Virus record (IMG/VR): IMGVR_UViG_3300042545_000320
Coordinates: 1-35,937 of that record
Length of the DNA stretch: 35,937 bases
Direction: 5' to 3' (one strand)
DNA from: a virus
The notes under the pieces are model-generated. The model did not search any database, had not been told where the DNA came from, and worked only from the letters and a program-made list of their open reading frames with translations. Shown piece by piece: positions 4,895 to 27,344 of the stretch. The position numbers and the translations under genes were made by a program. Positions within the stretch are counted from its first letter, which is position 1, and each line of letters starts with the position of its first letter.

Positions 4895-5623
4895 TTATTT
4901 GTCTTTCTGCTTATTGAGAACTTGGTTGCCGATATCGATCAGGCGACCTTTAGTGCTCTTTGCGAATCCTGTTGGGTTCTCAGCAGTTTTTGAGTTTGAT
5001 GCAATAAGTTCTTTCTGGTTCTTGACAGTGTCTTCCTTGACATCATCAGCAGAAACCTTATACAGAGGATGCTTCATAGCCTTTACGTCGGCATCATCCT
5101 TTGACTTATGTTTAGAAACAACTTCGGTTCCTTTCTTCACAACCCAATTTTCTTTGGTCATGAAGTTTTGTGGACCAACGCCAGAATCTGAAGCCTTGAT
5201 CTTTGTGTTTTTCTTGTGGAAATTTGCAAAGGATTCCATATTTACTGCTCCAGTTATTTTACGTGGGTTTTGTGGTCCGACTCTGTTGGATACTCCGGAA
5301 CTCGGAGCCTTCACAGCAGGAGTTTCTGAATGAGGTCCAAGCACCGAGGCTCTTCTATCTAGGGTATGTTTTTGGACTGTTTGTGTTCTGACCAAATCTG
5401 CATTTTTTCTTTGTTTCACATCAGCAGACATTTTGGATTTTTCTCTTTGTTGCTGGGTGTCTGGGTCATTCTGTTCGCCCATAGCAGCGGCAACATATTT
5501 CTTCTGCATCTTTTTAGAAACAGGAACAGTGTTCTTGTCGTCACCAGCGCCAGCTACGCCAGCTACGCCTGTGCCGACACCAGCAGCGCCACCATCTTCA
5601 GCGAATTGTTTGAACGACTTCAT
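4895..5623 (-). CDS. Putative internal head protein with capsid-targeting-like N-terminus
   Basis: A 242-aa, lysine- and alanine-rich, low-complexity protein. It begins MKSFKQFAEDGGAAG, which closely parallels the T4 internal-protein capsid-targeting sequence MKTYQEFIAEA, with FAE as the candidate cut site for the prohead protease (T4 consensus (L/I)xE). After a Gly/Ala linker the body contains KKMQKKYVAAAM, WVVKKGTEVVSKHKSKDD and MKHPLYKVSADDVKE, with no known enzyme motif. It starts as ATGA over the stop of the preceding gene. A packaged or scaffold-associated role is inference from the N-terminus and from similar N-termini on other proteins of this window. Confidence 0.6.
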   Translation of the reverse strand: MKSFKQFAEDGGAAGVGTGVAGVAGAGDDKNTVPVSKKMQKKYVAAAMGEQNDPDTQQQREKSKMSADVKQRKNADLVRTQTVQKHTLDRRASVLGPHSETPAVKAPSSGVSNRVGPQNPRKITGAVNMESFANFHKKNTKIKASDSGVGPQNFMTKENWVVKKGTEVVSKHKSKDDADVKAMKHPLYKVSADDVKEDTVKNQKELIASNSKTAENPTGFAKSTKGRLIDIGNQVLNKQKDK

Positions 5624-6012
5624 ATCTTCTTTAATACCTTTATTATGTTTTCGTCGCTATTGATATCAGAACAATCTATTTTTTTGTTCGTGATACCAAT
5701 ATTAATAACTGTATTTGGCAAATAGCCAAGAAAATCTAAGAACGGTTTCAAATATTCGTAGTGTTCAGTCATTCTAAAGAATAACATTCTGGTAGCAGGA
5801 ACAACTCCGAATACATTATAAAGAACAATGATATGATTTAATATCAATCGTTCTTTTAATTCGCCACTCTCTTGGTACTTGTTGAATAAACGCTTGAGAT
5901 ACTTGAATCTTTTTAAATCAGAAAAAAATTCCTCTGTGTCGAAACACTCGGGATTATCATAGTGTCTAGCAGCATACAGAACAAAATTGGTTTCATCAAG
6001 GCTATCGTTCAT
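5620..6012 (-). CDS. Conserved T4-like phage protein, 130 aa
   Basis: Contains NFVLYAARHYDNPECFDTEE, DLKRFKYLKRLFNKYQESG, LKERLILNHIIVLYNVFG and ATRMLFFRM. This order of motifs is typical of a widely conserved T4-like phage family (I recall it as DUF7207). I chose ATG at 6012 (MNDSLDETN) over the more upstream ATG at 6051: relatives begin just before NF-LYAA, and this start lies 1 bp after the previous stop, although no strong ribosome site is visible. All-helical, no catalytic motif; it lies among structural genes. Function is unknown. Confidence 0.78.
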   Translation of the reverse strand: MNDSLDETNFVLYAARHYDNPECFDTEEFFSDLKRFKYLKRLFNKYQESGELKERLILNHIIVLYNVFGVVPATRMLFFRMTEHYEYLKPFLDFLGYLPNTVINIGITNKKIDCSDINSDENIIKVLKKI

Positions 6013-6013
6013 A

Positions 6014-6481
6014 TCAATTACCGATTTTTCGGTATACTCCATCATAGGCAACCCAAGTATATACCTCTCCGATAGAGGTCAGACTTGTAGTATTACCAAC
6101 AGAACCGCCTGTAGCAGCTTCAATTGTTGTAACAGATGTGTTGCTTGTTGTTACAATTACGCTGTATGGTCCAGGAGCAATACATTTGATTGTGAAGATC
6201 TTATTGTTTGCACCTGCTGGCAAAGTGACAGTAATGTCTTCACCAGCAGTGTTTGGGTTGCAAAGAATAATATCAGTCGAAAGATTGGCAACGAATGTAT
6301 CGTTGGCAACAAAAGTTACTGCTCTTGTACTGGTTACTTTATTGGCAACGTAGCTGTAGATTGTGTTGGCTACGACGACGTATGTATTACCATCCGCCCT
6401 CTCGATCGCAAACAAGTCAGTATCAGCGACACTAGCAGTGTTTGACGTCTTGTAGATATCGCTGTACTTTTTACCTGCCAT
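6014..6481 (-). CDS. Putative virion (tail/fibre-type) structural protein, 155 aa
   Basis: The N-terminus (MAGKKYSDIYKTSNTASVAD, then TDLFAIERADGNTYVV) matches the start of many T4-like phage structural and fibre-like proteins. A beta-rich, Thr/Val-rich body follows (ITVTLPAGANNKIFTIKCIA, VTTIEAATGG), ending YTWVAYDGVYRKIGN. The ITVTLPA...K segment is common in fibre tips of marine phages. It lies 23 bp after the 272-aa structural gene and just before the conserved 130-aa protein. A structural role is likely; its exact place in the particle cannot be told. Confidence 0.7.
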   Translation of the reverse strand: MAGKKYSDIYKTSNTASVADTDLFAIERADGNTYVVVANTIYSYVANKVTSTRAVTFVANDTFVANLSTDIILCNPNTAGEDITVTLPAGANNKIFTIKCIAPGPYSVIVTTSNTSVTTIEAATGGSVGNTTSLTSIGEVYTWVAYDGVYRKIGN

Positions 6482-6504
6482 TTAATCAATTCCCTCTATA
6501 ACTA

Positions 6505-7323
6505 TCAGGCGTCAGGGAATACTGTATCTTCAGCGTCCGCACCAGCATTGTTCATCGAGCGAACAACAGCAATATTTTCATACTGAACGCGACCAGAACG
6601 ACCACCGACAGTGATGCCAGCAAGAGTTCCGCCTGTAGAAGCAACAGCATTCGCGCCGAACGTAGCACCCGAACCACCTGAAGCTCCACCAGTCGAGTTA
6701 GCAATAGTAACAACCAACTGGTTATTTGCGGTCGTGTTAGCAACTGTTCCTGAGTTCGTGACTGTGAAAGTCAGAGAACCACCAGTAGCATTGGTCGAGA
6801 CTGTTGCTGTAGCATTGACGATCGCATTTGCAACTGTAACAACGTCGGTGTTGCTATAGCCTGTCGCAGTTCCTGTGTAGGTGATCACAGTGACATGCTT
6901 TTCGCGATTGAAACCTGCAACAACGACAGAAGCATTAACGTAGCCTGAACCCAGACCACTACCGTTGATGCCAACGGAAACAAGATTTCCTGTAGCATTT
7001 GCGGTCAGAGTTGCTGTAGCATTAGCCGAACCATTCGAAACAGTGATAGTGTCACCTGTCTTGAACCCTGTTCCGCCTGTTGCAGTCATTGCAGTGATCG
7101 GACCAGTGCCAGTACGAACGATATTCCAACCTGGAGTCACGCCCTTAGCTTTGACTGTTGCTTCTGTTTGGTCAACGCCAAAAAGACCAGCAACCTGCTT
7201 GTCGACAACTGCATTTGGTGTATTATTACTGAAGATCGTATTGCCACGATATTCAGTGCCAGCAATAACGCTTGTTTGTCTTGGTGCATTATTAGCTTGG
7301 TCTAGTTTTCCCCATAGAGCCAT
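6505..7323 (-). CDS. Virion structural protein of the marine T4-like type, 272 aa
   Basis: Opens MALWGKLDQANNAPRQTSVI and closes with GRSGRVQYENIAVVRSMNNA followed by an acidic tail ending VFPDA. Both ends are hallmarks of a structural protein common to cyanophages and other marine T4-like phages. Between them are TGF-x-TGDTITVSNGSANATATL and two further related Gly/Ala/Thr-rich beta segments, probably repeated beta-sandwich units that decorate the particle. The Ala/Gly/Thr content is far above the window average. An AATAAATA late-promoter box lies 26 bp before the ATG, in line with late expression. Confidence 0.8.
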   Translation of the reverse strand: MALWGKLDQANNAPRQTSVIAGTEYRGNTIFSNNTPNAVVDKQVAGLFGVDQTEATVKAKGVTPGWNIVRTGTGPITAMTATGGTGFKTGDTITVSNGSANATATLTANATGNLVSVGINGSGLGSGYVNASVVVAGFNREKHVTVITYTGTATGYSNTDVVTVANAIVNATATVSTNATGGSLTFTVTNSGTVANTTANNQLVVTIANSTGGASGGSGATFGANAVASTGGTLAGITVGGRSGRVQYENIAVVRSMNNAGADAEDTVFPDA

Positions 7324-7338
7324 TTCTAGTTTCTCCTG

Positions 7339-8433
7339 TTATACTTTATATTTATTGAAGTAGTCAACGACTTCCATACTACCCGTCGAGACATTGAGCC
7401 AATCTTGGCGCTGTTCAGGGGAAATGATGGTGATATTTGAAGCATCTTCAAACATCTTGCGTTTCTCGAAAGTTTTTGCCATAACATCAAGTACAGCAGA
7501 TTCAACAGCTGGAACTCTCTTGTTGACCGAAGTAGCATTCATAGCGTCGCCAGACTTGCCTGACTTCTTGTAGATTTCACCAGTCTTTGATTGTGCGATT
7601 TGATCAGCACCACCCATTGAAGTGTCAGTCATGCAACCTTCACTTTCTTCCTTGGCAAGTTTTCTAACTGCAGTCAAAACGCCCAAAGAACGCTTTACAG
7701 CTTTGGCATCTTCTTTTTCGCCAGCAGATGAATCTGTGTCGCCACGCTCGCCTTGCTCGAATCCACCCTTAGAAGCCAAATTGCTGATCGACTTTTCGCT
7801 GCTAGGAGCTAGGGATTTGATCACATAAGAATTGAGAGTTCCCTTCGACAATTCGTCAAGTTCTTCAGCTTCTTCCTTGGTCAGTTTATTAACAGCGAGT
7901 TTAATACCCTTTTCGCGCTTGCCCATGTCCTTAAAGTTCTTGCTCGACTTTTCGTCTGCAGCAATCTTCAGGCCAGCTGTAACACCTTGACTGCCCATTT
8001 TTGTGGCAGCCTTGTTGATATAACGACCCATTGTATCCTTTGAAAGTTCATCAATCTGTTCTGCGTCTTCTTTGGTCAACTTCTTGACAGCAGTTTCAAT
8101 ACCTCTATGGCGCTTGTCGAGCTTTTTGCCTAAAGATGCGACATGCTTTGGGTTAGCGGCCACATCAGCTTCTTTGTGACCTTGTCTCCAAGCAGTTAGA
8201 TCAATAGAGTTTTTTGCTTTATTGATATAGCGACCAAGTGTTGGCTTTGAGATCTCATCAAGATCTTCAACTTCTTCAGCAACTTTGTTCTTACCACGAA
8301 GAAGTTTGAAGTCATGAGCATCAACCTTGCCATTCTTGTTGGCATCAATCTTATGCTGATTACCTTTTAGTTCATCGATCTGCTCGAACTTCGCTCGAGC
8401 CTCCGACAACTTCATTTTAATGAATTCTGACAT
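7339..8433 (-). CDS. Repeat-containing putative internal head/scaffold protein with EF-hand, 364 aa
   Basis: Start MSEFIKMKLSEARAKFEQID is set by GGGAG six bases upstream. Residues 30-41 (DANKNGKVDAHD) form a canonical EF-hand calcium loop. Three repeats of about 65-75 residues follow (units begin near 53, 122 and 187). Each opens with a motif of the form E-[DEQL]-[LI]-DE-[LI]-SK-x-T-[LM]-G-x-YI-x-KA and closes with R-x-x-GI-x-x-AVxKLTKE. The protein is rich in Lys and Glu. A perfect TATAAATA late promoter lies 25 bp upstream. Proteins with this SK-TLG-YI-KA repeat occur in marine T4-like and ViI-like phages, beside structural genes. LSE near residue 10 and [LI]DE in every repeat resemble T4 prohead-protease sites; this is inference. 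Confidence 0.7.
   Translation of the reverse strand: MSEFIKMKLSEARAKFEQIDELKGNQHKIDANKNGKVDAHDFKLLRGKNKVAEEVEDLDEISKPTLGRYINKAKNSIDLTAWRQGHKEADVAANPKHVASLGKKLDKRHRGIETAVKKLTKEDAEQIDELSKDTMGRYINKAATKMGSQGVTAGLKIAADEKSSKNFKDMGKREKGIKLAVNKLTKEEAEELDELSKGTLNSYVIKSLAPSSEKSISNLASKGGFEQGERGDTDSSAGEKEDAKAVKRSLGVLTAVRKLAKEESEGCMTDTSMGGADQIAQSKTGEIYKKSGKSGDAMNATSVNKRVPAVESAVLDVMAKTFEKRKMFEDASNITIISPEQRQDWLNVSTGSMEVVDYFNKYKV
7349..7356 (-). promoter_or_regulatory. Candidate late promoter box (AATAAATA)
   Basis: Minus-strand AATAAATA, 26 bp upstream of the ATG at 7323, with AGGAGA in between as ribosome site. Matches the NATAAATA late consensus, and the spacing equals that of the TATAAATA boxes at 8458, 13628, 14800 and 27372. 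Confidence 0.5.
7648..8277 (-). repeat. Three tandem coding repeats (SKxTLGxYIxKA units)
   Basis: Protein-level tandem repeats at residues about 53-121, 122-186 and 187-262 of the 364-aa protein. The heads are DEISKPTLGRYINKA, DELSKDTMGRYINKA and DELSKGTLNSYVIKS. The tails are RGIETAVKKLTKE, KGIKLAVNKLTKE and GVLTAVRKLAKE. The upstream 469-aa protein contains further copies near residues 138-156 and 252-272, so the unit has spread between neighbouring genes. Confidence 0.85.
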
Positions 8434-8457
8434 GTTATTCTCCCAAATTTTATTATC

Positions 8458-8465
8458 TATTTATA
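8458..8465 (-). promoter_or_regulatory. Late promoter box TATAAATA
   Basis: Perfect minus-strand TATAAATA, 25 bp before the ATG at 8433, in the short gap between two head-protein genes. It fits the T4 late promoter, in which this octamer alone is recognised by the late sigma factor with clamp-assisted activation. Confidence 0.75.
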
Positions 8466-8485
8466 ATTATCGGTATCTTATGATC

Positions 8486-9895
8486 TCAACGATACTTGGG
8501 CATGCCATAATCACCACTGTCTTTGTGGGCAGGTGTTGGCTCGGAAACAGCTTTTACGAATGCATCATGCGAAGCACTGGCTTTCTTTTGGAACGCAGCT
8601 TTATCTTGAGTCGTTCTGCGAGCAGCCATGTGATCATTAAATGCAGTAATATGTCTTGGGTGAATCTCATGTTTTTTGCCATCATCAAATTCTACATGAG
8701 AATTGATTGATGCTGCTTTGCGAAGTTGCATACCAAGAGCAACTGGCTCTTCTTTTGGCTTACCTGCAGAAGCTGCAGCCTGTTGGCGATGCCAAGCTGC
8801 CGAGCCTTCTTTGGCTGGGCGACCGCGACCTTCTTCGAGTTTCTTAAGAACACCAGTTAAAAATTTGTTTTCTTTCATGACTTCTTCCTTGGTAAGTTTA
8901 TCAGCTGCTCTTGTGATTCCTGTTTCGCGATTTTTACGGAGACGCTCTGCTTTGTCGTAAGTTGCTTGGTTGAATCTTTTGCCAAAGTGTCCTGTTTCAC
9001 TATCGCCTTGATATGCAGCGATTTTTGTCAGAGGAAGATTCTTTGGTGACATTACATTCTTTGGCTGTTCAGCACCAGATGCCTTCTTGATATATGAACC
9101 AAGAGTTCCCTTTGACAATTCGTCAAGTTCTTCAGCTTCTTCCTTGACAGCATTCTGACGAAGACTCTTGTAACGACGGACAGCAGCTTTTCGCTCAGAA
9201 GAACCACCAGGAGTTTTTAGAAGATCAGCATACGCCTTCTTGATTTCTGGATTTGTCACACCTTCATCAATTTCAACTTCTTCGTTGGTTTTCTTGGCCT
9301 TCTCAATTGTTCTGAGCGCACGGGCAGTGCTCTTCATATCTTTGTTCATCTTACCAAAAGACTGCGGCTTCTTTAACTTGCTAGATTTGCCATCTGGACT
9401 GATATCGTAATCTCTTTCACGCTTTCCTTTTAGATAGCGATGAGCCATATCAGAAGAAATCTCATCCATCTGCTCAACTTCTTCATTTGCTGGGAGGTGT
9501 GGAGTCACCTTAAACTTATGAAGTGGACCATTGGCATTTTTTCCACTCTTGTTGTATGCACGGATGTGAACGCTCGCGCCATCATTTTTTGTTACGGTGC
9601 CATAATGTTTGTCGCCAGTTCCTGGAAGATAGTAGTCGACATCATCATTTTTATTCATGTCCTTTGCCATATCAGGATGCATCAAACCATGAGAAGCATA
9701 GGCGCGATGACTATAATTAGCTTCAGCCATATAGTCGTCAAAGTTTTGTTGAAGATGAGACACAGCAGCACCTTCATGCGATGCGCCATGGTCAGCAACA
9801 GAGAAAGATGCCTTGATGTCACCGTCTTTACCTAGGACATGCGAACCTGACTCGTCAGAAAATACTGTTGGTTTCTTAAACATTTGTGTCTCCAT
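8486..9895 (-). CDS. Large repeat-containing putative internal head/structural protein, 469 aa
   Basis: N-terminal about 135 residues are a separate His-rich domain (HYGTVTKNDGASVHIRAYNK). Then come copies of the DE[IL]S repeat (EEVEQMDEISSDMAHRYLKG near 138 and EELDELSKGTLGSYIKKA near 255), with GITRAADKLTKEE as a repeat tail. From about residue 339 a segment starting MKENKFLTGVLKKLEEGRGR and continuing with MQLRKAASINSHVEFDDGKK resembles a stand-alone small protein of marine T4-like phages, so this gene looks like a fusion. ATG at 9895 overlaps the dps stop (TAATG). No catalytic motif is seen. A place in the prohead core or head interior is inference. Confidence 0.65.
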   Translation of the reverse strand: METQMFKKPTVFSDESGSHVLGKDGDIKASFSVADHGASHEGAAVSHLQQNFDDYMAEANYSHRAYASHGLMHPDMAKDMNKNDDVDYYLPGTGDKHYGTVTKNDGASVHIRAYNKSGKNANGPLHKFKVTPHLPANEEVEQMDEISSDMAHRYLKGKRERDYDISPDGKSSKLKKPQSFGKMNKDMKSTARALRTIEKAKKTNEEVEIDEGVTNPEIKKAYADLLKTPGGSSERKAAVRRYKSLRQNAVKEEAEELDELSKGTLGSYIKKASGAEQPKNVMSPKNLPLTKIAAYQGDSETGHFGKRFNQATYDKAERLRKNRETGITRAADKLTKEEVMKENKFLTGVLKKLEEGRGRPAKEGSAAWHRQQAAASAGKPKEEPVALGMQLRKAASINSHVEFDDGKKHEIHPRHITAFNDHMAARRTTQDKAAFQKKASASHDAFVKAVSEPTPAHKDSGDYGMPKYR

Positions 9896-10332
9896 TACTT
9901 TACTGTGGCTCTAAGCATCCAGCCATGCTTGTTGTGAATATCTAGGCGATCCTGCATAAAGTTCTCAATGCCCTTATGCTTTGGATCTTTTCCTGCTTCT
10001 GCGATCGCAGCAATAACAGAATCAATTACCTTGTCGTTATCAGACAACAGTGTTTTGATCATGGCGCGAGCATCAGGAACAGTTTCAATTGTGCCAATTG
10101 TTGATAATTCTTGGAAACGCTTATAGCTTCCTGGAGCATATTCATCAAGAGTGCGAATGTGCTCTGCGATTGCATCCACAGCACCAAAAACTTCGCTGTA
10201 GAGAGTTTCGAACAATGCATGATATTGTGGGAAATTATCCCCTTCTACGTTCCAGTGAAAGTAGTGAGATTTCAAATAGAATGTAAAGCTGTCCGCTAAG
10301 ACAACCTTTAGTTTGTCACCCAGTGTGCTCAT
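9895..10332 (-). CDS. dps: Dps-family ferritin-like protein
   Basis: A 145-aa four-helix protein matching the Dps/ferritin-like family, which oxidises Fe(II) with peroxide and stores iron in a 12-subunit shell, protecting DNA. The intersubunit ferroxidase residues are all in place: H26 in FHWNVEG, H38 and E42 in YHALFE, and D53 and E57 in VDAIAEHIRTL. It lacks the lysine-rich N-terminal tail used by E. coli Dps to bind DNA. It lies inside a run of putative head-protein genes, with ATGA overlap upstream and TAATG overlap downstream, so it is probably co-translated with them. Packaging or protection of phage DNA from oxidation during infection are both possible. Confidence 0.9.
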   Translation of the reverse strand: MSTLGDKLKVVLADSFTFYLKSHYFHWNVEGDNFPQYHALFETLYSEVFGAVDAIAEHIRTLDEYAPGSYKRFQELSTIGTIETVPDARAMIKTLLSDNDKVIDSVIAAIAEAGKDPKHKGIENFMQDRLDIHNKHGWMLRATVK

Positions 10333-10619
10333 TTCTTGCCTTCCATAATTGCCTTGACTCTGTCTGTCAGAGATTCCTCAGAGACAGTATCAACTTTGGC
10401 ATGTTTCTTTGCTTTTTCTAGAGCCGAATCAGCAAGTCTCCAATATTTAACGTGGTATCCATCGGAAGATTTATAACCGACTTGCTTACCGTTTTCTGAA
10501 TATGGCTTTACATATGGAGTTGCTTTGGCTTCTTTAATTGCTTCAATCTCGCTGGCTTTCAGATGAAGATTAGAACCATGTTTGTCAGTAGCAACTACGT
10601 AGCTGTCTAGCAGCATCAT
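10329..10619 (-). CDS. Hypothetical protein, 96 aa
   Basis: Starts MMLLDSYVVATDKHGSNLHL and ends SLTDRVKAIMEGKK, with KYWRLADSALEKAKKHAK in the middle. It is lysine-rich and mixed alpha/beta; I do not recognise the family. It overlaps the C-terminus of the 578-aa gene by 35 bp and the dps start by 4 bp (ATGA), so it belongs to the same coupled unit. A later start is possible, but no better ribosome site is evident. Confidence 0.6.
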   Translation of the reverse strand: MMLLDSYVVATDKHGSNLHLKASEIEAIKEAKATPYVKPYSENGKQVGYKSSDGYHVKYWRLADSALEKAKKHAKVDTVSEESLTDRVKAIMEGKK

Positions 10620-12321
10620 TCATGTCGATGTTACCCTTACCAGTGTATCCATCTTTCTTGATCATTACTCGATCGCCACGATGAAATTGACCAGCCTTTT
10701 GTGTATGACCTTCGTCACCATCATCATATTCGATTTCTTCGCAGTTCCAAGCACGACGAGACCAGTAGTTGGCCGAAGACTTGTCAGTCAGATTGCCTTG
10801 ACCGCCAGAACGAGCGCAATATGATTTCTTGCGAGCAGGAATATTCTTTTTAATGCTGAGAGTCTTGTCGCCGAAGTTTACCTTCTTAGCTTTGCCGTCA
10901 CCATCTGGATCGACATAGACCTTTGACTTCTTAACATCGCCAGCCATTGGCTTGTTTAGAGGAACTTTCTTGCCTTGATATGTGGCTTCATCAATCTCGA
11001 CTTCTTCTTTCGGAACACAATTAGGAACGGTCTTGCCGTTTTTCTTCTTGGTGCCTACAGGCTCGTAGCCTTTCCAGCAAGGATTATCGGTGCGCAGACT
11101 TTCACGAACAGGCTTAAACTTCTTGGTCTTTTCAGCAGTTGTTGGAATGCCATCCATAGATTGGTTGGCGCTGCCTGATTCGCCAGTTTCGCCGTTAGCA
11201 ATATCAGCAGCGAACAATCCCTCTGCCTTGATTCTCTTGCCACCGATGCGGCTAGTCTTCATTGCTTGTGTTGTTGGAGCATTTGACTCTGGAGCTTTTG
11301 GTGTATCTAAAGCACCTGTTCCCTCAATGTCATCATAACCCTCAAGGAAACCAGCCGACAGTTGGCGCTTCTTAGATCTACGACGCATTAGCTCAAAATT
11401 AGTCTGGTCGCTATCATCTTTTTTGTTCGAATCAAGACCAATATTGCCTTTGTCCTCAGGAGGTGGCAATTTGTTCAGTGGTGATTTCTTGCCGATGAAG
11501 TCACGAGCAGTTCTGGTTGGAATGGCAGGGACAGGATATCCACTTGCATCGCCACCAGCTTCGTTCATAGGTTTTGCTGTATTCAGACCCATACCATTAT
11601 GAAGGTCGTCATATAGTTCTTTGGCATGTTTATCTGACACGTGTGACGGAACAGCATTTGTGCGGAATTTCTTATAATCCCCTGCTTCAACTGTTTCTCT
11701 GCTCTTTGTTCCAGACCATCCTGCAGCACCAGTGGCAGCGGCATCGCGCTGTTCTCCAGCAGCAACTACGCTGATTTTCGGAAAATTGAAATATCCATGT
11801 TTGCCAGCTTCGCCATTGTATCTGTTCAGCAATCTTTCGTATTCAGATACGCGATCCGATCCAGCAACAACCATAAGGTGCTTGTGCCCCTTTTGGTGAA
11901 GTTCAGCAGCTTGGCTAAGGAGATTTGGTCTTTCCTCAGAAGCCATTTGAATGTTTGCTTTAGGGAAAAATCTTTTGGCGTGCTTTAGTTTTTGATCAGG
12001 CGTCAAAGGATTGCGAACGCCAGAGCCTGTCTTTTTCTTGATGACATCATGCGAACGAGTAAGTATAATATGGTGAGGTGCGCCATGAGCCTTAGCTAGT
12101 TGCATTGCTTTGTCGACAACAATACCATGAGAAGGTGTAGGAGGAGACATGCGCATCGGCGCAAGAACAACTGGTTTGTCACCTGGAGCTGATGGATCAA
12201 CAGATTCATTCTGTGTTGCACGGCTGACGATAACCTCGTTAGGAGTCTTGCCAGTAAGAGTCACATCTCTTTTTGGCTCTAACCCTAACTTTGCTCTAAT
12301 TTTATTAAGAAACTGACCCAT
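10585..12321 (-). CDS. Cytidylyltransferase-like internal head protein with Cys-containing C-terminal modules, 578 aa
   Basis: Residues about 50-225 resemble the nucleotidyltransferase (HxGH) fold. APMRMSPPTPSHG has T62-x2-H65 in the place of the HxGH signature, LMVVAGSDRVSEYERLLNR is the core strand and helix, and GWSGTKSRE with R208 matches the second (ISSTR-like) motif. A long disordered Lys/Pro/Asp-rich linker follows, then two short modules common in marine T4-like phage proteins: PCWKGYEPVGTKKKNGKTVP and, near the end, SYCARSGGQ with a later RRAWNC. The catalytic part matches a phage family often described as structural or scaffold-associated. Substrate is unknown. The C-terminus overlaps the next gene by 35 bp. 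Confidence 0.65.
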   Translation of the reverse strand: MGQFLNKIRAKLGLEPKRDVTLTGKTPNEVIVSRATQNESVDPSAPGDKPVVLAPMRMSPPTPSHGIVVDKAMQLAKAHGAPHHIILTRSHDVIKKKTGSGVRNPLTPDQKLKHAKRFFPKANIQMASEERPNLLSQAAELHQKGHKHLMVVAGSDRVSEYERLLNRYNGEAGKHGYFNFPKISVVAAGEQRDAAATGAAGWSGTKSRETVEAGDYKKFRTNAVPSHVSDKHAKELYDDLHNGMGLNTAKPMNEAGGDASGYPVPAIPTRTARDFIGKKSPLNKLPPPEDKGNIGLDSNKKDDSDQTNFELMRRRSKKRQLSAGFLEGYDDIEGTGALDTPKAPESNAPTTQAMKTSRIGGKRIKAEGLFAADIANGETGESGSANQSMDGIPTTAEKTKKFKPVRESLRTDNPCWKGYEPVGTKKKNGKTVPNCVPKEEVEIDEATYQGKKVPLNKPMAGDVKKSKVYVDPDGDGKAKKVNFGDKTLSIKKNIPARKKSYCARSGGQGNLTDKSSANYWSRRAWNCEEIEYDDGDEGHTQKAGQFHRGDRVMIKKDGYTGKGNIDMNDAARQLRSCY

Positions 12322-12340: not shown

Positions 12341-12356
12341 TATTTATCTATTTATT
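12341..12356 (-). promoter_or_regulatory. Two candidate late promoter boxes (AATAAATA, GATAAATA)
   Basis: On the minus strand AATAAATA (12349-12356) is followed directly by GATAAATA (12341-12348), ahead of the ATG at 12321. The first lies 28 bp from the ATG, matching the spacing at the perfect TATAAATA boxes of this window. The pair overlaps the stop of the upstream 414-aa gene. Confidence 0.5.
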
Positions 12357-13599
12357 ATTCTGGCGTGTTAGTGGGTTGACTGCGATTCTTTGACATAGCA
12401 AAGTTCGCAGCACTAAATGCTGGCTTTCCAGGTTCATCTTGGCGGCGAACAAACTTGGATATGTTATTGTCTTTATCAACAGAAACAAATCCTTCAGGTC
12501 CAGACTTCTGTCCGCCTAAAGAATATCCATATTGCTTGTTGTTTTCCAAAGAATTGATCAGAGTGTTCTTGGCTTTCTGCAGGTGATTGTGCAGTCTCAA
12601 TGCTCGCTCAATGTGCGGCTTGTTTACTTGAATATGTGCCAATCTTTGATCAAGCAGAGCTCTCTTGCGGTCTATAGCCGAAGGAGTTTTGAGTTTGGCA
12701 ATAGCCTTTTCTTCTTTTTCTCTGACATGACGCATGAAACCAGCATGAGTCGGAGCACCATTTTGCCTAATCTCATGGTTCAAATATGTTCCGATAGCAT
12801 CAGCATGCTGACCAACAGCATCATGGCCATGCTTAGGCATTGCTTGAAATTCTTTTTCAGCAGAATTCATATGATCAAGAAACTTCAATTTCTCTTCATC
12901 AGAATAGTGAGAAGAGTCAACAGGAACCTTGGTCGAAATTACGTGGACATCTGAATGGGATTTGAATCTAGCCAAGTTTGGCATGAATTTCGGACTCATT
13001 CCAGCAAGAGTATTAGTGCCATCGCCTTGATATTCAGTATGCGTTGACACACCAATCTTTGCGTTAGAAACCTTCTTGCCCTCTGTAGAGTTTTTGTCTA
13101 CATCGTATTTCAAGGTGTTTGGAGTGAAGGAATAAGTTTTACCTTCATCCTGCACATCAGGTTTAGTATACATAACATCGCCCTGATACACCTTATTTCC
13201 AGGAGTAACTTTAGGCAGATGCTCTAGAGCTGCGTTCATCTTCTCGACCAGACCAGGAGCATGACCGTGATTACGTTCAATATCTTCTGGTGTATAGTTT
13301 ATCTTTGGTGTCTTGTTGCCGATTGCTTTGGTTGCAACAAAGAATTTGCCATTTTCGGGATTTGTGCCCCAAACCAATGATGGACTGCCATCATCTTTTC
13401 TTCCGACTTTAACATCAGAAGGAAGTCCACGCATCGCATTGTGCATGCCAATGAGGTGTTTGACTGCATGGCGATAGCCATCTGCTCCATGCATATACGA
13501 ATAATCTTCGACATGAGTCGTATGCCCATGCACTTTACCCGAAGGCTCTTCGGTTTGTTGAGGAGCCTCCTCGGCAAACAATAGATTAAACTTTTTCAT
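12355..13599 (-). CDS. DUF6267-like internal head protein with ligase-type KxDG motif, 414 aa
   Basis: Begins MKKFNLLFAEEAPQQ, similar to the T4 capsid-targeting sequence with FAE as a possible cut site. Residues 60-190 contain K68-D-D-G71 (VGRKDDGSPSLVWGTNP), GKFFVATKAI, VYQGDVMYTK with D141, YSFTPNTLKYDV and KIGVSTHTEYQGDG. This set belongs to a conserved marine-phage family (I recall DUF6267). KxDG followed by a YxGD strand and later Lys-containing strands is the layout of covalent nucleotidyltransferases such as DNA/RNA ligases, where the motif lysine is adenylated. The C-terminal half is helical and His/Lys-rich. A late promoter precedes it by 29 bp. Ligase activity is inference. Confidence 0.65.
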   Translation of the reverse strand: MKKFNLLFAEEAPQQTEEPSGKVHGHTTHVEDYSYMHGADGYRHAVKHLIGMHNAMRGLPSDVKVGRKDDGSPSLVWGTNPENGKFFVATKAIGNKTPKINYTPEDIERNHGHAPGLVEKMNAALEHLPKVTPGNKVYQGDVMYTKPDVQDEGKTYSFTPNTLKYDVDKNSTEGKKVSNAKIGVSTHTEYQGDGTNTLAGMSPKFMPNLARFKSHSDVHVISTKVPVDSSHYSDEEKLKFLDHMNSAEKEFQAMPKHGHDAVGQHADAIGTYLNHEIRQNGAPTHAGFMRHVREKEEKAIAKLKTPSAIDRKRALLDQRLAHIQVNKPHIERALRLHNHLQKAKNTLINSLENNKQYGYSLGGQKSGPEGFVSVDKDNNISKFVRRQDEPGKPAFSAANFAMSKNRSQPTNTPE

Positions 13600-13627: not shown

Positions 13628-13635
13628 TATTTATA
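13628..13635 (-). promoter_or_regulatory. Late promoter box TATAAATA
   Basis: Perfect minus-strand TATAAATA immediately downstream of an intrinsic terminator and 29 bp before the ATG at 13599. Terminator then late promoter gives the 414-aa gene its own transcription start. Confidence 0.78.
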
Positions 13636-13637
13636 AT

Positions 13638-13667
13638 AAAAAAGGACAAGGAGTTTCCCCCTTATCC
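13638..13667 (-). terminator. Rho-independent terminator
   Basis: Minus-strand RNA folds GGATAAGG (13660-13667) against CCTTGTCC (13644-13651), with one U-G pair and an 8-nt loop, followed by a run of six T. The stop codon of the 370-aa gene is inside the left arm. It ends the transcript just before the next late promoter. Confidence 0.85.
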
Positions 13668-14774
13668 TAGTTTGAACGCACCAGCCATACCTTTGTGTGG
13701 ACCAGATGTGGCTTTGAAAATTTGGGATGCGACTTTCGTTGGCTTGCCCGTTTCCTTATGGGTTCCCCAAATTTCAGAAGAGATACCTCTGCCTTGTTTT
13801 ACATGTAAGTGCGCAAATTTATCCAGATGTTCGTTGGCAATATCTGCAGCATTATGGATCAGAGGAACTGCAGAACCATCGGATTGAACGTGGCCATGAG
13901 CAACAATATGCGGATATACAGTTGGAGCAGAAACTTGGCTCACTATATGTCTACGCAAATGAGCATCTTGGAGTTCTGGATTGTGTTGGTCTCTGCTCAA
14001 CCCCTGTTCATGCATTCTTGCCATTCTCTGTCTGGCATCAAGAGAAGAAGCTTCTGCAGCAGCAACCTTTGCCTGCACTTCAGGATCCTCAGACTTCAAG
14101 TCTTGCTTGTACTGAGCATGTCTTTCTTTCTTTGATCCTTCGTAGCCCAACTCTGTCATTTTAGAATCATGGTCTCGAGCTATTCTCGTGTAAGAACCTT
14201 TGGCATGACCAGCCTGAGATTCTAATGATTCTAATCCAGAGTTGCGGAAATTTGGTTGCTTTTCTGAACCATATTTTGCCGAAATAGGAATAAAGTTTCG
14301 TTCGCCAGCAGCATTCGTTGTGGTCGCGATAATGTCAGCGTTTGAGTTGACATCTTTGATTCCTGTTGTTTTTTCGTGGTCACCTGCTTTTTTATCTGTG
14401 TCAGCATTAGAAGTCCAGCTGACATCAGCAATCTTGTGACCTCCTGATCCACCAAGCATTCCCTGCCTACCGAGATGGTCTTTTACTGCATCAGCAGTTG
14501 CTCGCGCATGCTCGTGCAACTCATTATATGCTTCCTCGCCAATCTTTTCTCGAAGTCGATCGTGGACTTGCTGGGGAGTTCCGCCGTATTCTTCGTTCTC
14601 AGAACGATGGTGAGAGGGCAATTGTTTCTTACTATCATCTGTGTGTGACATATGATGTGCCAAAAGCAACTCAAACATTTTGCCTTTGTCATCATTTGAT
14701 ACTTTAGATGTGGCGGAGAGACTTGGTTTTCTCGCCTCATCCAGATAGTGTTTGTATTCTTTAAAAGATAACAT
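13662..14774 (-). CDS. Putative packaged nuclease-like protein with capsid-targeting-like N-terminus, 370 aa
   Basis: N-terminus MLSFKEYKHYLDEARKP resembles the T4 capsid-targeting sequence, with LDE as a candidate prohead-protease site. Downstream, KGKMFELLLAHHM (E35), NADIIATTT (D147) and FIPISAKYGSEKQPNF (K167) follow the order E...D...(S)xK of divergent PD-(D/E)xK nucleases, in which a Ser sometimes replaces the acidic residue before the Lys. The rest is helical and His/Gln/Ala-rich, ending KATSGPHKGMAGAFKLG. It is bounded by a TATAAATA late promoter and an intrinsic terminator, so it is a single late transcript. Nuclease activity is a weak inference; packaged status rests on the N-terminus. 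Confidence 0.6.
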   Translation of the reverse strand: MLSFKEYKHYLDEARKPSLSATSKVSNDDKGKMFELLLAHHMSHTDDSKKQLPSHHRSENEEYGGTPQQVHDRLREKIGEEAYNELHEHARATADAVKDHLGRQGMLGGSGGHKIADVSWTSNADTDKKAGDHEKTTGIKDVNSNADIIATTTNAAGERNFIPISAKYGSEKQPNFRNSGLESLESQAGHAKGSYTRIARDHDSKMTELGYEGSKKERHAQYKQDLKSEDPEVQAKVAAAEASSLDARQRMARMHEQGLSRDQHNPELQDAHLRRHIVSQVSAPTVYPHIVAHGHVQSDGSAVPLIHNAADIANEHLDKFAHLHVKQGRGISSEIWGTHKETGKPTKVASQIFKATSGPHKGMAGAFKLG

Positions 14775-14799: not shown

Positions 14800-14807
14800 T
14801 ATTTATA
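14800..14807 (-). promoter_or_regulatory. Late promoter box TATAAATA
   Basis: Perfect minus-strand TATAAATA, 26 bp upstream of the ATG at 14774, overlapping the stop codon of the upstream 183-aa gene. It marks the beginning of the late head-protein region as read leftward. Confidence 0.78.
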
Positions 14808-18733: not shown

Positions 18734-18892
18734 TTATACTTCATCCCAATTTATTTCGTCAAGCTTACTCAATTGTGTTTTGACGTAGTGGTATGCCGCA
18801 AAAGCAGCAACTCCTGTCACGCCAAACACAGCTAAGAAGGCTACTTTCTTAGCGGAATTTAAATTTAACTTTTGCTTCGATATTTTCCACAT
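18734..18892 (-). CDS. Small single-pass membrane protein, 52 aa
   Basis: Reads MWKISKQKLNLNSAKKVAFL, AVFGVTGVAAFAAYHYVKTQ and LSKLDEINWDEV. A basic N-terminus, one hydrophobic helix (residues about 16-37) and an acidic C-terminal tail suggest an inner-membrane protein with the N-terminus inside. It overlaps the end of the secreted nuclease gene by 44 bp and its stop is 10 bp before the next start. Its position suggests partnership with the exported nuclease, perhaps as an anchor; this is inference. Confidence 0.5.
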   Translation of the reverse strand: MWKISKQKLNLNSAKKVAFLAVFGVTGVAAFAAYHYVKTQLSKLDEINWDEV

Positions 18893-19493
18893 TTGTCGTA
18901 GTCACCTTTCCTCCCTTAACGTTGTCAGCAATATATGCAATCATCGTGCCATCCTGAAGGTATACAATCTTATAGAGTTGGGTAGGAACAGGAACCTTGC
19001 GAATTCCAATGACCTTATTGTAATTTTCGTAGATAGCACCAGTGACAACATATTTGAATTTCATATCGCGAACAGCAACCTCAAGCAGACGCCAAGGTGT
19101 GCGGTTGACAGTTGGCTCCTGTGGAGTCATGTTCGTCATGAAGAAGGTGTCAGACATTTGCTGGTCGTCATTCGAGTTAGCAGCAGGAACCATGTGGCCA
19201 CGGTCATATCCAGTGTTTGTATAATCATCTGGAGTAGTAGGATCAGGGTCACGCTTGTCTGGGCGGAAGTCGTTCTTACGAACTGGCTTCCCAGTGCGAG
19301 GAGTTGCGATCTCAGTCGAGAACACATTGGCTTCTCGAGCAGGATCGTATACTACAGCATAGAATGAGTTACAAAGAACATTTGTTCCAGGAACTACGAT
19401 TTCTTTGCCATTAGGGAAGAACTGATCGCATGGTGATGCGAATGCAGCGGTAGGGAACAGCATAAATGCTGCTGCTAAGAATGCTTTTTTCAT
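18849..19493 (-). CDS. Secreted DNA/RNA non-specific endonuclease (NUC1 family)
   Basis: A 214-aa protein with a clear signal peptide (MKKAFLAAAFMLFPTAAFA, cut near residue 19-20). The beta-beta-alpha metal nuclease domain has the DRGH motif at 97-100 (YDRGHMVPAANSN) giving the general base H100, with FFMTNMTPQEPTVNR giving the metal-binding Asn. Two cysteines in the mature N-terminal part (22 and 41) could form a disulfide in the periplasm. It degrades DNA and RNA, so export keeps it from phage DNA in the cytoplasm. Possible roles are scavenging nucleotides, clearing DNA at lysis or destroying incoming competitor DNA in the periplasm. Confidence 0.9.
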   Translation of the reverse strand: MKKAFLAAAFMLFPTAAFASPCDQFFPNGKEIVVPGTNVLCNSFYAVVYDPAREANVFSTEIATPRTGKPVRKNDFRPDKRDPDPTTPDDYTNTGYDRGHMVPAANSNDDQQMSDTFFMTNMTPQEPTVNRTPWRLLEVAVRDMKFKYVVTGAIYENYNKVIGIRKVPVPTQLYKIVYLQDGTMIAYIADNVKGGKVTTTNVENIEAKVKFKFR

Positions 19494-19960: not shown

Positions 19961-19989
19961 ACTCTAACGCGAATAGGAAAAAAAGTCAA
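19961..19989 (-). promoter_or_regulatory. Promoter (TTGACT-N17-TAGAGT)
   Basis: Minus strand: near-consensus TTGACT (19984-19989), 17-bp T-rich spacer, TAGAGT (19961-19966), then GAATAATAAGGAG. Shares the 15-bp TTAGAGTGAATAATA core with two other promoters of this window. The -35 overlaps the end of the HAD gene. Confidence 0.7.
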
Positions 19990-20615
19990 ACACTTTTACG
20001 GTTAACTGTAACTTTTCCTGTGATAGGATTATGCTGCACATGGTGAGCATGAAACACCACATCAGGATGATGCTGTTTGAGAGCAAGGAGATGGTCAAGA
20101 TTTTCCGTAGAGTCATCATAGAGATGGACTTCTTTGTATCCATTCTCCTTGACCAGATTGGATATCATCTGTGCTTTATTGACAGCAGCAGAACCACGAG
20201 GATTTAGATTACCAGAACGACGAACATGGATCTGGCCAATGTCAACGCCGAACTTCTTCAGGTGATCACCAAACTTTTTCTTGTCATCCAGATCAGAACG
20301 AGCAGTAACAATTTCAACCTTACCACCATTGCGATGGATTGCCTTCATCTTGGCTAGCATCGGACGGATAGGATAGGCTGATCTTTTGAACACGCTGGCC
20401 GACTTAAAGTCAGCAAAATCATATTCGTGATTAGGATGCAGTTTATGCGTATTAAACTGGGTATTTGACAGGGACATAACCCTGCGACCAGACTTCTTGT
20501 CTTTCACATGAACACGAAGCTTGTCATGGTCATGACCAAAGATCGTCTCATCCATGTCGAACGCATGGTAAGTGTTCGAGCTTTCTTGGAGATATTCTGA
20601 AAAAGTTTTGATCAT
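19986..20615 (-). CDS. HAD-like phosphatase with capsid-targeting-like N-terminus, 209 aa
   Basis: ATG at 20615 (MIKTFSEYLQESSNTYH) is chosen for AAGGA five bases upstream; the longer frame has no such site. The first 11 residues parallel the T4 capsid-targeting sequence, with LQE as a possible cut site. The HAD core follows at once: motif I FDMDET with D20 and D22, motif II VEIVTARSD with T104, and motif IV HLYDDST with D167/D168. HAD enzymes of this phage type are linked to nucleic-acid end processing (5' or 3' phosphate removal), though substrate cannot be read here. It lies 7 bp after the signal-peptide protein gene. Confidence 0.78.
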   Translation of the reverse strand: MIKTFSEYLQESSNTYHAFDMDETIFGHDHDKLRVHVKDKKSGRRVMSLSNTQFNTHKLHPNHEYDFADFKSASVFKRSAYPIRPMLAKMKAIHRNGGKVEIVTARSDLDDKKKFGDHLKKFGVDIGQIHVRRSGNLNPRGSAAVNKAQMISNLVKENGYKEVHLYDDSTENLDHLLALKQHHPDVVFHAHHVQHNPITGKVTVNRKSV

Positions 20616-20952: not shown

Positions 20953-20979
20953 AACACGTCTCCTTTTTTTATATTTAGG

Positions 20980-21276: not shown

Positions 21277-21282
21277 AATCAA

Positions 21283-21338: not shown

Positions 21339-21362
21339 GTTTTTTTCGGAAACAGAAAAAAA

Positions 21363-24009: not shown

Positions 24010-24020
24010 ATATTATTCTC

Positions 24021-26519
24021 CTAGGCAAAAAAATCATCGAGGGTTGCGACTTCTTCAGTTTTCCAACTGATGGCGTCGCAGATTAAAGTCAGTGGCTTTA
24101 GAAACGCAGCATTAAACTGACGGTCGTAGTCAATATGTTGTTCCAAATTAAATTGTTTGGGCAATACATTTAGGACGGCAAATACATCCTCGTGCAGAGG
24201 ATTGGGAACTTTCATGTAACAATACTTGATTTTATCTCCGTCCGTAATTGCATTATACTTCTTTTCTAAATTATTGTCAAGCAGTAATTTGTTAAAAAGT
24301 AGAGCACCACGAACATGGATTGGTGTTCCGCCACGATAGATATGAGTATCTGACTTGTAGTCAGTGAGACTCGAGCATCCACGAGGCGAAGCGATTTCTT
24401 CAAAGGACAGCTTGCCAAATTCTTCACGGAAACCGTCAATGAATTGAATCAATTCAAGTTGAGTTCCACGAATAATAATCTGCAACGCTTGCCTAATTTT
24501 ATTGCGACAGACTTCAGGAGTCGAGGATTTGACAGCCTCAATACCCATAATCTTCAGATCAGGTTCTTTATACCGAACACCCTCATTGTCCCAGACATTC
24601 AGAATGTATCGTTTCTTGGCAGTCCAGATACCACGGTCGGCAATCGCTTCGCGCTTCATCTTCATGTTCTGCATGTAGGCATTGGTATTGTCAGCTAATT
24701 CCTGAAACTTCTGATCGATAAAAGGTTCGAGCTTTTGTTGGCAGACTTTGTCGAGGAAGTTGACAGTTGTTTCTTTGTCTTTGTTTGGGCAAGCCATGTC
24801 AACCAAATCGCCGAGACGAAGATAGATCGAGTCAGTATCCGAAGCAATAACGAAACGCTTCTCTTTGCCTGTCAGCTTCGCAAGATAGGCATCCATCGCA
24901 TCACCAACATACCGAATACCATACTGACCAGAGAAGGTGATAGCTTCAGCAAACTGCAGCTTATACCAACGGAAGTAGACGTTACCAACTGCACCGAACA
25001 GAGAGTTGAGAATAATCTTCTTGGCCATCTGCATGTTATTACAGCGAGAGATCTCTGCTTCAATCGCCTTAGACTTACCTTCAGACTGCTTGCGCTTTTT
25101 CGCATCAGTCATCTTGTTCTTCCACATCGTTCGGTCGGCATACATCTTTTCGACCAGCTGCGGGAACATACCTTTCTCGTTCTTGTTCCAGACTGTTCCG
25201 TTGGCAGCAATCGCAAGATTTTCTTCTCGAGCATCCTCAAGTATGCTTGGTTTGATTCCATCCTTGAGTAGATTGTCGATTGAAGGGAAGTTAGGCAGCA
25301 TACCAGCATAAGTCTCAGGAGACATATTATATTGAACAATCAGGCTGGGATACAGAGAGTTAACGTCAAACGAAGCCACCCAATCGTGCATGCCAGTGAC
25401 AGGCTCAAGAACGAATGCGCCTTCAAACTGATTCTTCTTTTCTCCACGCTTGATCTGATTGACAACCATCTTCTGCTCGAGCATGAAGTTATGAATGATC
25501 ACATCCCAGAGCAACACAGAAGTAAAGGAATCTTCAAGATTGACCTTGGCATCATACGCGATCGCATACGCGAGCTCGATGAGAGCCATCTTCTCGTCAA
25601 GTTTCTTGACCAGTTCTACATCTCGAATGTTGTATTCGATGAACCGCTGGGGATCCTGCTTATACATACCAGCAAGAGTCTCAAATTCACTGTAGTCAAT
25701 CTTACGTTCGCCAAGTTCGACATAAGCAATATGGTCGAGGCGATAGTTTTCTTGCTTGGTATATGTAAACTTGGTGTAGAGACGTTGATAGTCTAGAGCA
25801 GATATGCCCATGATGTCATACGACTGTTGCTCGCGACCCCACATCTCAACCGACTTTTCTTTGAGCCAACCCCAAGGCGAAAACCCAGCAGCATACTCAT
25901 CGCCGAACAGCTTCTTGTAACGATTGACCAGATACGGAATATCGAAGAACTCAATATACCAGCCAGTCATGACATCAAAGTCAAACTGTTTCCAGAACTT
26001 CATGAATGCACGAAGCATACTCAGTTCGTCATCGTAGAGGAGCGCTTCTACATCATCGCGATGCTTCTTATATTGTAGAGTGGTGAACACATAATACTTG
26101 CCGCGAAACTCAACGGTGATGGCGTTGATAGCCTTGTCCGCTTTGTCAGGATTTGGGAATCCATCATCAGACTCGACCTCGATATCCAGATCGGCAACAC
26201 GAATCTGATCACGATCGTATTGAATTTCTCCTGGATAATAATCGTTCAAGAATGCATAGACCCACTTGTCCATGCCATAGATCTCGAATCCTGAGACTTC
26301 GTCATAAGTTTTGGTAAATTCTCTGGCTTCCTTGATAGAATCAAATTCTATCTTGTCGACCATAGCTCCAGAGATTGTTCTGTATTCTGGATCTGGCTTC
26401 CTTGACGGAACGAACAGATATGGGTTGTATGGAATTTTGGTCGAAACCCTGCGACCATCTTCATATCCACGAAGAAAAATAAAATTACCACGCAATGCTG
26501 CGTTGGTGTAGAATCGCAT
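24021..26519 (-). CDS. 43: Replicative DNA polymerase, T4 gp43-like (family B)
   Basis: An 832-aa family-B polymerase with 3'-5' exonuclease. Exo I is VADLDIEVES with D112 and E114, the same numbering as in T4, and Exo II/III-type segments follow (FDVMTGWYIEFFDIPY). Polymerase motif A is SFDVNSLYPSLI (near 384), motif B is KKIILNSLFGAVGN and motif C is ASDTDSIYL (near 560). The C-terminus EVATLDDFFA is a likely sliding-clamp-binding peptide, as at the end of T4 gp43. It starts behind its own promoter (26552-26580). No intein or split is present; the length is slightly below T4's 898. Confidence 0.97.
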   Translation of the reverse strand: MRFYTNAALRGNFIFLRGYEDGRRVSTKIPYNPYLFVPSRKPDPEYRTISGAMVDKIEFDSIKEAREFTKTYDEVSGFEIYGMDKWVYAFLNDYYPGEIQYDRDQIRVADLDIEVESDDGFPNPDKADKAINAITVEFRGKYYVFTTLQYKKHRDDVEALLYDDELSMLRAFMKFWKQFDFDVMTGWYIEFFDIPYLVNRYKKLFGDEYAAGFSPWGWLKEKSVEMWGREQQSYDIMGISALDYQRLYTKFTYTKQENYRLDHIAYVELGERKIDYSEFETLAGMYKQDPQRFIEYNIRDVELVKKLDEKMALIELAYAIAYDAKVNLEDSFTSVLLWDVIIHNFMLEQKMVVNQIKRGEKKNQFEGAFVLEPVTGMHDWVASFDVNSLYPSLIVQYNMSPETYAGMLPNFPSIDNLLKDGIKPSILEDAREENLAIAANGTVWNKNEKGMFPQLVEKMYADRTMWKNKMTDAKKRKQSEGKSKAIEAEISRCNNMQMAKKIILNSLFGAVGNVYFRWYKLQFAEAITFSGQYGIRYVGDAMDAYLAKLTGKEKRFVIASDTDSIYLRLGDLVDMACPNKDKETTVNFLDKVCQQKLEPFIDQKFQELADNTNAYMQNMKMKREAIADRGIWTAKKRYILNVWDNEGVRYKEPDLKIMGIEAVKSSTPEVCRNKIRQALQIIIRGTQLELIQFIDGFREEFGKLSFEEIASPRGCSSLTDYKSDTHIYRGGTPIHVRGALLFNKLLLDNNLEKKYNAITDGDKIKYCYMKVPNPLHEDVFAVLNVLPKQFNLEQHIDYDRQFNAAFLKPLTLICDAISWKTEEVATLDDFFA

Positions 26520-26551
26520 TCGATCACCTCATAGTTAAAGAGCCAATTCTC

Positions 26552-26580
26552 AATATACCCTAGAAAGGAAAAAATAGCAA
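26552..26580 (-). promoter_or_regulatory. Promoter for gp43 (TTGCTA-N17-TATATT)
   Basis: Minus strand: TTGCTA (26575-26580), 17-bp spacer ending CTAGGG, TATATT (26552-26557). The TTCTTGCT start and TAGGGTATA end match the primase promoter, suggesting co-regulation of polymerase and primase. Confidence 0.72.
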
Positions 26581-26591
26581 GAACTATTTCC

Positions 26592-27344
26592 TCAATCGAC
26601 GGAATATTCTTTGTCTTCAAAATTGGTCAAGTAGTCATTCAATTGGTTGATTTTTCCGAGATTGCGCAGAGCCTTATAGACCAGATTCTCTTGCGCAAAT
26701 TCTCCAGCTTTCTGGATTCCTGAAGATCTCATCTGGTGGAGTCTACCCTTCAGCTTTTTAATTTGCTGTGCCTTCTCTTTTGTTCCGTAGGCAAAGTCGC
26801 TTGTCATATGATCAATCTGTTTCGCATAATACTTAATCTTGCGAATTAGATTCGGATTTGAATACATCTGTTTCACATCGTGCTTCGATGGCTTCGAGAT
26901 CCACTTGTTGGTGATCAGAGAGTAAATTCCTTGAGCATCTTTTGGTTCTTGTTTTTCATCCTGAGCATACAACTCAACAGGATATCCTTTGATTCGGATA
27001 TTGGGATGGTACTTTGCCCAGAGAATCTTCTTGTCGTATAACCAGTCGTCGAGAATGTCTGGGTCTTTGATGATGTTTTCCATATCAACAACAAGATGCA
27101 GGTCGATGTCCGAGAAGTCGGTATAGTTGTAGTTACAGTTCCCGCCAATCAGAATGATGTCTTTGATGACACTGAACGGAATACGAGAGAAGTCTGCCCA
27201 GTCATGTGCGATTCGAATCAGAGCAGCATGAATCTTTGGGTCTAGCTTTTCTTTCTGCCAGATCGCAGGATTGAGCTGATCATGATACTGCAGAGTAGTA
27301 TCGAATTTAGATCTTTCGTTCAGGAATTCTGTAAATTTGAGCAT
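26592..27344 (-). CDS. Nucleotidyltransferase-fold protein with capsid-targeting-like N-terminus, 250 aa
   Basis: N-terminus MLKFTEFLNERSKFD resembles the T4 capsid-targeting sequence, with LNE as a candidate protease site. The core IGGNCNYNYTDFSDIDLHLV at about 66-85 has the GG/GS and D79-x-D81 pattern of Pol-beta-type nucleotidyltransferases, with PVELYAQ as the likely third acidic strand. The helical C-terminal half is basic (QQIKKLKGRLHQMR). A TATAAATA late promoter lies 28 bp upstream, so it is made late although it sits beside gp43. It could be an injected nucleotidyltransferase; the substrate is unknown. Confidence 0.75.
   Translation of the reverse strand: MLKFTEFLNERSKFDTTLQYHDQLNPAIWQKEKLDPKIHAALIRIAHDWADFSRIPFSVIKDIILIGGNCNYNYTDFSDIDLHLVVDMENIIKDPDILDDWLYDKKILWAKYHPNIRIKGYPVELYAQDEKQEPKDAQGIYSLITNKWISKPSKHDVKQMYSNPNLIRKIKYYAKQIDHMTSDFAYGTKEKAQQIKKLKGRLHQMRSSGIQKAGEFAQENLVYKALRNLGKINQLNDYLTNFEDKEYSVD

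Follow-up and report, generated by a model that had tools for sequence, protein, structure and literature searches.

Why do several predicted enzymes encoded by one genome fragment of an uncultured T4-like phage begin with the same kind of short sequence? The question is raised by the window analysed here, the complete 35.9 kb IMG/VR virus record IMGVR_UViG_3300042545_000320 (35,937 nucleotides), in which an initial annotation had picked out six proteins with N-termini like those of the T4 internal proteins, which are packed into the phage head and ejected. At least four, and probably five, of the encoded proteins appear to start with such a tag: Met, two further residues, an aromatic residue at about position 4, another at about position 7 and then [L/I/F]-x-E. 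We consider it highly probable that this is a T4-type capsid-targeting sequence, that it is removed by gp21-type cleavage and that it marks enzymes as cargo for injection. Its identity as a T4-type capsid-targeting sequence is well supported, by recovery of the T4 internal proteins with a model that had not seen them, conserved anchor positions, matching cleavage sites in capsid proteins and enrichment in the virions of relatives. The tag itself is of a known kind; what appears to be new is the set of large enzymes that it would carry, together with the possibility of using it, in aquatic T4-like phages, to predict which enzymes are found in virions.

The N-terminal tag and its T4 counterpart

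All six proposed N-termini translate as described from their start codons. To avoid circularity, we trained a motif model solely on DUF6267 N-termini of other phages, reached through the window's own DUF6267 gene; most of them begin M-x-x-F-x-x-[FY]-[LI]-x-E. The model scored 17.2 for a HAD-superfamily phosphatase (19986..20615; MIKTFSEYLQE/S, the slash marking the predicted cut), 15.5 for a probable Pol-beta-type nucleotidyltransferase (26592..27344; MLKFTEFLNE/R) and 7.3 for the window's DUF6267 protein (12355..13599; MKKFNLLFAE/E), all three predicted head cargo, and 6.6 for an alanine/glycine/lysine-rich, possible head protein (4895..5623; tag-like MKSFKQFAED). A HinP1I/MspI-like nuclease (13662..14774; variant tag MLSFKEYKHYLDE/A), also predicted head cargo, scored 0.6, and a late repeat protein starting MSEFIKMKLSEA (7339..8433) scored -3.1; all six genes lie on the minus strand. 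Three N-termini other than that of the DUF6267 protein reach a score of at least 6, against a mean of 0.15 after shuffling. Because internal Met residues in the window score up to 6.7 (214 trials), the values of 7.3 and 6.6 are modest alone, and lean on conservation in homologues.

Most of the proposed set therefore stands: the phosphatase, the nucleotidyltransferase, the DUF6267 protein and the alanine/glycine/lysine-rich protein show the pattern at the extreme N-terminus, with hydrophobic or aromatic residues near positions 4 and 7, through the model, and the nuclease shows it through its family. We count the nuclease as tagged despite its score because its homologues carry the tag pattern, beginning F-K-x-[FY].., and have a further Y-[IL]-x-E-[AV] site behind it; this second site explains the odd MLSFKEYKHYLDEA of the window protein. 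The late repeat protein was rejected as a tag carrier on its score and on a homologue in contig L143 that has MSEFIRMKLSEARAK and shows no tag. Ribosome-binding-like sequences precede the phosphatase, DUF6267 and nuclease genes, that of the phosphatase being a Shine–Dalgarno-like AAGGA ahead of its ATG.

Across homologues, the aromatic residue at position 4 or 5 and the Glu at position 10 or 11 are retained while neighbouring residues drift. M1 and E10 are invariant in an alignment of 25 DUF6267 sequences, which omits untagged members, and the spacing between tag and body ranges from 1 to about 13 residues. In the phosphatase family, essentially only F5 and E11 are kept in the N-terminal region, ahead of a conserved enzyme. 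Homologues of the nucleotidyltransferase begin MLDFTQFLNER in contig L093 and MRKFSQLLEDTR in Cr30, and the L143 homologue of the alanine/glycine/lysine-rich protein has an identical MKSFKQFAEDGGAAGV.

In T4, the tag of IPIII comprises ten residues, of which 4 and 7 serve targeting and 8 and 10 serve processing; Asp at position 10 stops processing and leaves targeting unaffected (PMC9026906). The positions kept across unrelated families here are those that T4 genetics ties to targeting and processing, which supports the capsid-targeting reading. The tags share with those of T4 IPI, IPII and IPIII (MKTYQEFIAE/A) their N-terminal position, the aromatic residues at 4 and 7, the L/I/F-x-E site and a disordered stretch preceding a folded body: in both of our structure models the tag is disordered (residues 1-25 of the DUF6267 protein and 1-23 of the nuclease) and the body is confident. 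When applied to all 1296 ATG starts in T4, the T4-blind model placed IPIII and IPII at ranks 1-2 (17.3) and IPI at rank 5 (6.6), and it missed Alt, whose MELITELFDE scores -7.1. The alanine/glycine/lysine-rich protein reads F-A-E-D, with Glu at position 9 and Asp at position 10; given that Asp at 10 blocks processing in T4, its cleavage is uncertain.

The T4 internal proteins are ejected; so is Alt, an enzyme that T4 packs into its head, trims and injects (PMC9026906). In T4 the internal proteins are small and inhibit type IV restriction enzymes; here the tag is attached to larger proteins, predicted enzymes with three or more folds. As enzymes they resemble Alt, an injected ADP-ribosyltransferase; the Alt N-terminus, however, lies outside our model and its chemistry is different. 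The T4 scan also returned, third in the genome with a score of 16.5, a 76-amino-acid open reading frame (ORF) in the uvsW region (L162:24711; NC_000866 position 114210, plus strand) that starts MLLEFKQFLYEASIDEF and is possibly an unrecognised T4 internal protein, or a chance match.

The window holds recognisable T4-like genes for DNA polymerase gp43, UvsX, the gp41 helicase, primase, the clamp loader gp44/62 and thyX, and a sliding clamp and nrdA were recognised by eye; head genes are absent from it, and gp21 and gp23 were therefore judged from relatives. The [L/I/F]-x-E sites of the tags match the gp23 propeptide sites of related contigs (the window itself lacks gp23), whose major capsid proteins carry FLTE/S, LLSE/T, TLNE/T, QLNE/T and similar sequences at the presumed point of propeptide cleavage. 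Of 12 related contigs, all of them possibly fragments, 7 encode a gp21-type protease (PF03420).

To gauge how far the tag extends, we used a related set of 155 loci (1.32 Mb) picked through cargo genes, and hence a non-random sample. The tag was found in 203 of its 1615 ORFs, in 40 families, compared with 2 of 5878 internal Met positions. By construction, the DUF6267 and HAD families make up 103 of the 203 tagged ORFs; the remainder include adenylate-kinase-like, zeta-toxin-like and 5'-nucleotidase-like proteins.

Tagged proteins in virions of related phages

Published virion proteomes of T4-like cyanophages support the presence of tagged enzymes in the virions of relatives. In the Synechococcus phage S-CREM2, for which 52 virion proteins are reported (PMC10665884), 6 of 219 annotated proteins match the T4 rule, and all but one of these were detected in virions (5/6, P=0.003). 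The five comprise a SAM hydrolase and an APH-like kinase, a cytidylyltransferase starting MKNFSSFLTEA, and two hypothetical proteins. Virion-detected counterparts of the cytidylyltransferase include an NMNAT starting MKSFLQFLKEA in S-SCSM1 (PMC9602691) and a cytidylyltransferase starting MRFRQFIIEA in S-SZBM1 (PMC9146016), so that this protein is both tagged and found in virions in three of three phages. The adjoining DUF6267 protein of S-SZBM1, which lacks the tag (MAKNTHLEHLEDD), was undetected in virions. Pooling S-CREM2, S-SCSM1 and S-SZBM1 gives 7 virion-detected proteins out of 11 with the tag, compared with 2.2 expected (P=0.0016), most of the signal coming from S-CREM2. The tag thus marks many, not all, of the enzymes found by mass spectrometry (MS) in related virus particles.

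These observations offer a mechanism for a puzzle, namely the metabolic and nucleic-acid enzymes of purified cyanophage virions that have been reported as cargo or carry-over. In the parts available, two of the proteome reports mention no tag; the published reports propose no mechanism of packing, and our literature searches for a capsid-targeting sequence in cyanophages returned only a T4 review and no earlier link. The presence of an enzyme in the virion becomes a prediction from its first dozen residues, open to test in cultured phages.

The S-CREM2 proteome also contains an unusual case: ORF12, a Cas9-annotated virion protein (L082 7704-10313), carries LRFASFMAEAA, which includes the tag core, at residues 17-27 and not at its very beginning, with the core motif at residue 19, so that either its start annotation or its tag position is unusual. 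Two further tagged proteins, SSZBM1_191 (S-SZBM1 122311-123125, L179) and SSCSM1_30 (S-SCSM1 44215-44535, L172), begin MK[TS]FK[QS]F[ML]SESVNISGDFNGNL and lie in the structural gene cluster; SSZBM1_192 begins MKTFKQYITEAKN.

Predicted enzymes behind the tag

The proposal that several of the tagged proteins have enzyme folds is supported by ligase-like, HinP1I/MspI-like and HAD predictions. For the DUF6267 protein (PF19782, 2.3e-80), the best structural matches of a confident model (pLDDT 88) in VIA-align are ligases throughout, led by the Naegleria RNA ligase (Z 10.0 over 186 residues, 3.7 A) and including an RNA-editing ligase (9.2), T4 Rnl2 (8.8), fungal Trl1 (7.8) and T4 Rnl1 (7.6); Foldseek alone returned no significant match for the same model. 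K68xDG (K68, D70 and G71), EGxV and KxVxR are invariant in the 25 aligned sequences; in motif V, K382xVxR is conserved and the second Lys of the canonical motif is not evident. On this modelling, DUF6267, formerly a domain without known function, looks like an RNA ligase. It shares its fold, KxDG and EGxV with the ATP-dependent RNA ligases (Naegleria Rnl, T4 Rnl2 and T4 Rnl1), but differs from them in its low identity (about 10%), an additional helical insert and the altered motif V.

The partner of the DUF6267 protein is a cytidylyltransferase/NMNAT-like protein (10585..12321, minus strand; phrog_3041, 4.5e-42, and phrog_455). It corresponds to the virion protein of the cyanophages S-CREM2, S-SCSM1, S-SZBM1 and S-SM1, which are T4-like relatives; the protein has a perfect tag in the first three and adjoins or is fused with DUF6267 in relatives, whereas the window copy has no clear tag. 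The two are separate genes in the window and form one tagged fusion protein in L015 (7842-9824) and similar loci. In five further contigs (L033, L042, L053, L054 and L064), DUF6267 lies within a longer protein, after ...WWKEQLTEV[IL]TETKANTH, in which TE/T could be an internal processing site.

The model of the nuclease (pLDDT 84) matches HinP1I (Z 11.8) and MspI (9.9), the next, unrelated match scoring 4.8, and predicts a PD-(D/E)XK enzyme. D147 and K167 are invariant in its family, but the third catalytic position is Ser or Gly, in contrast to the Gln or Asn that precedes the catalytic Lys in the two restriction enzymes. The window nuclease further differs from them in carrying a phage-head tag. 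In the HAD phosphatase (Pfam Acid_phosphat_B, 3.1e-7; phrog_415 polynucleotide kinase, 1.9e-11), all four HAD motifs are invariant across the family: D20xD22xT24, TAR104-106, K147 and DD167-168. The protein at 26592-27344 (phrog_36119) had no match in PDB or Pfam, and a GG-x9-SDIDL motif, read by eye, makes it a probable nucleotidyltransferase. The alanine/glycine/lysine-rich protein had no family match and has relatives in a single contig.

Searches of annotated phages returned no near nucleotide match for the first 24 kb of the window and no tblastn match for the nuclease or for the alanine/glycine/lysine-rich protein, and PDB sequence searches with the four cargo families gave nothing useful.

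Weighing the explanations, and neighbouring genes

For this phage, scaffold binding and injection are inferred by analogy with T4 and cleavage from the matching sites; the functions of the individual cargo proteins are likewise predictions. The tag would bind the scaffold core late in infection and thereby carry its enzyme into the prohead; a gp21-type prohead protease would cut after the Glu and free the folded enzyme, which would leave the head with the DNA and enter the next host. Because the cargo comprises a ligase-like enzyme, a nuclease, a phosphatase and a probable nucleotidyltransferase, its likely purpose is to act before phage gene expression, by mending the ends of RNA or other nucleic acids, by attacking host nucleic acid, or both; repair and attack are each compatible with the predicted folds. 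This yields candidates, DUF6267 among them, for effectors that act in the first minute of infection by abundant aquatic phages. A broader idea, which we put forward only tentatively and hold to be less likely than not, is that the head tag is in wide use among T4-like phages of the environment as an interchangeable label for the delivery of whole enzymes. In this phage the injected kit would combine an RNA-ligase-like enzyme, a phosphatase and a nucleotidyltransferase, mending RNA that host defence has cut, with a restriction-type nuclease directed at the host genome, all of them active ahead of phage gene expression.

Several observations weigh against targeting, cleavage and injection of these proteins. 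The evidence on virion presence comes from relatives, this phage being known here from its sequence alone, and gp21 is likewise known from relatives, the window being a fragment that lacks head genes. Some DUF6267 members have no tag. S-CREM2 ORF156, a homologue of the nucleotidyltransferase, was found in virions by MS even though its tag is weak, and conversely three proteins with perfect tags (SSCSM1_30, SSZBM1_191 and SSZBM1_192) were undetected. When S-CREM2 is set aside, 2 of 5 tagged proteins are detected in S-SCSM1 and S-SZBM1 (P=0.16). The authors of two of the proteomes leave the choice between cargo and carry-over open. Finally, the late-promoter-like boxes to which the initial annotation had pointed carry less weight than it gave them. 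The octamer TATAAATA does lie upstream of the DUF6267 gene (13628..13635), the nuclease gene (14800..14807) and, by 27 bp, the nucleotidyltransferase gene (27372..27379), all on the minus strand, but its reversal ATAAATAT occurs near 4 of 5 starts, so that the exact boxes do no better than this control and add little. We accordingly discarded a naive binomial value of 1e-6 as proof of late expression. The exact octamer also lies upstream of the late repeat protein gene, and in the wider loci it precedes 11% of tagged ORFs and 4% of others. Late synthesis of the tagged proteins in this phage is plausible but weakly supported.

The undetected proteins (one of six in S-CREM2 and three of five in S-SCSM1 and S-SZBM1) would suit an explanation in which the N-termini reflect chance, the composition of late proteins or another function, such as contact with membrane or tail, and the MS matches reflect carry-over of abundant late proteins; the proteome authors themselves raise carry-over. 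We regard this as highly improbable: internal Met positions reach the threshold far less often than ORF starts (2/5878 against 203/1615), conservation is confined to the anchor positions, and a model blind to T4 recovers the known T4 internal proteins. A tag that sends proteins to the prohead might, alternatively, place them where they act, in core assembly, processing of DNA ends or quality control of packaging, with no meaningful injection. T4 IPIII mutants do have head-assembly defects (PMC9026906), and nucleic acid inside the head, whether DNA or RNA, could be a substrate for nuclease and ligase folds. Yet the internal proteins of T4 are ejected, as is Alt, and three of these internal proteins block host restriction at entry (PMC12373910), and the variety of cargo among phages, with its 40 families, suits host-facing over structural roles; a function restricted to the prohead is in our judgement improbable.

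A different question is what injected cargo would do. T4 Pnkp and Rnl1 undo a host RNA-cleaving defence after their synthesis, and the DUF6267 protein, the HAD phosphatase and the nucleotidyltransferase could form an RNA (tRNA) repair kit that does so on entry. All three are tagged, the structural matches of DUF6267 are ligases with RNA ligases first, and the HAD protein matches the polynucleotide kinase family phrog_415. The HinP1I-like nuclease, however, fits no repair kit and the substrates are putative; moreover, the silence of Foldseek, the missing second Lys of DUF6267 motif V and a nucleotidyltransferase assignment that rests on a motif, not on a modelled fold, make repair as the purpose of the whole set rather unlikely.

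Other genes in the window were noted in passing. PADLOC gave a single weak match, to the late repeat protein, and otherwise no defence match. Beside the cytidylyltransferase gene, within a run of probable late genes, lies a gene for a Dps/ferritin-like protein (9895-10332, minus strand). A second nuclease (18849-19493, minus strand; phrog_14168) is probably periplasmic, because it has an apparent signal peptide (MKKAFLAAAFMLFPTAAFA). A relative of the beta-glucosyl-HMC-alpha-glucosyltransferase (30871-31695, minus strand; phrog_842) hints at modified phage DNA, and such modification could shield it from an injected nuclease.

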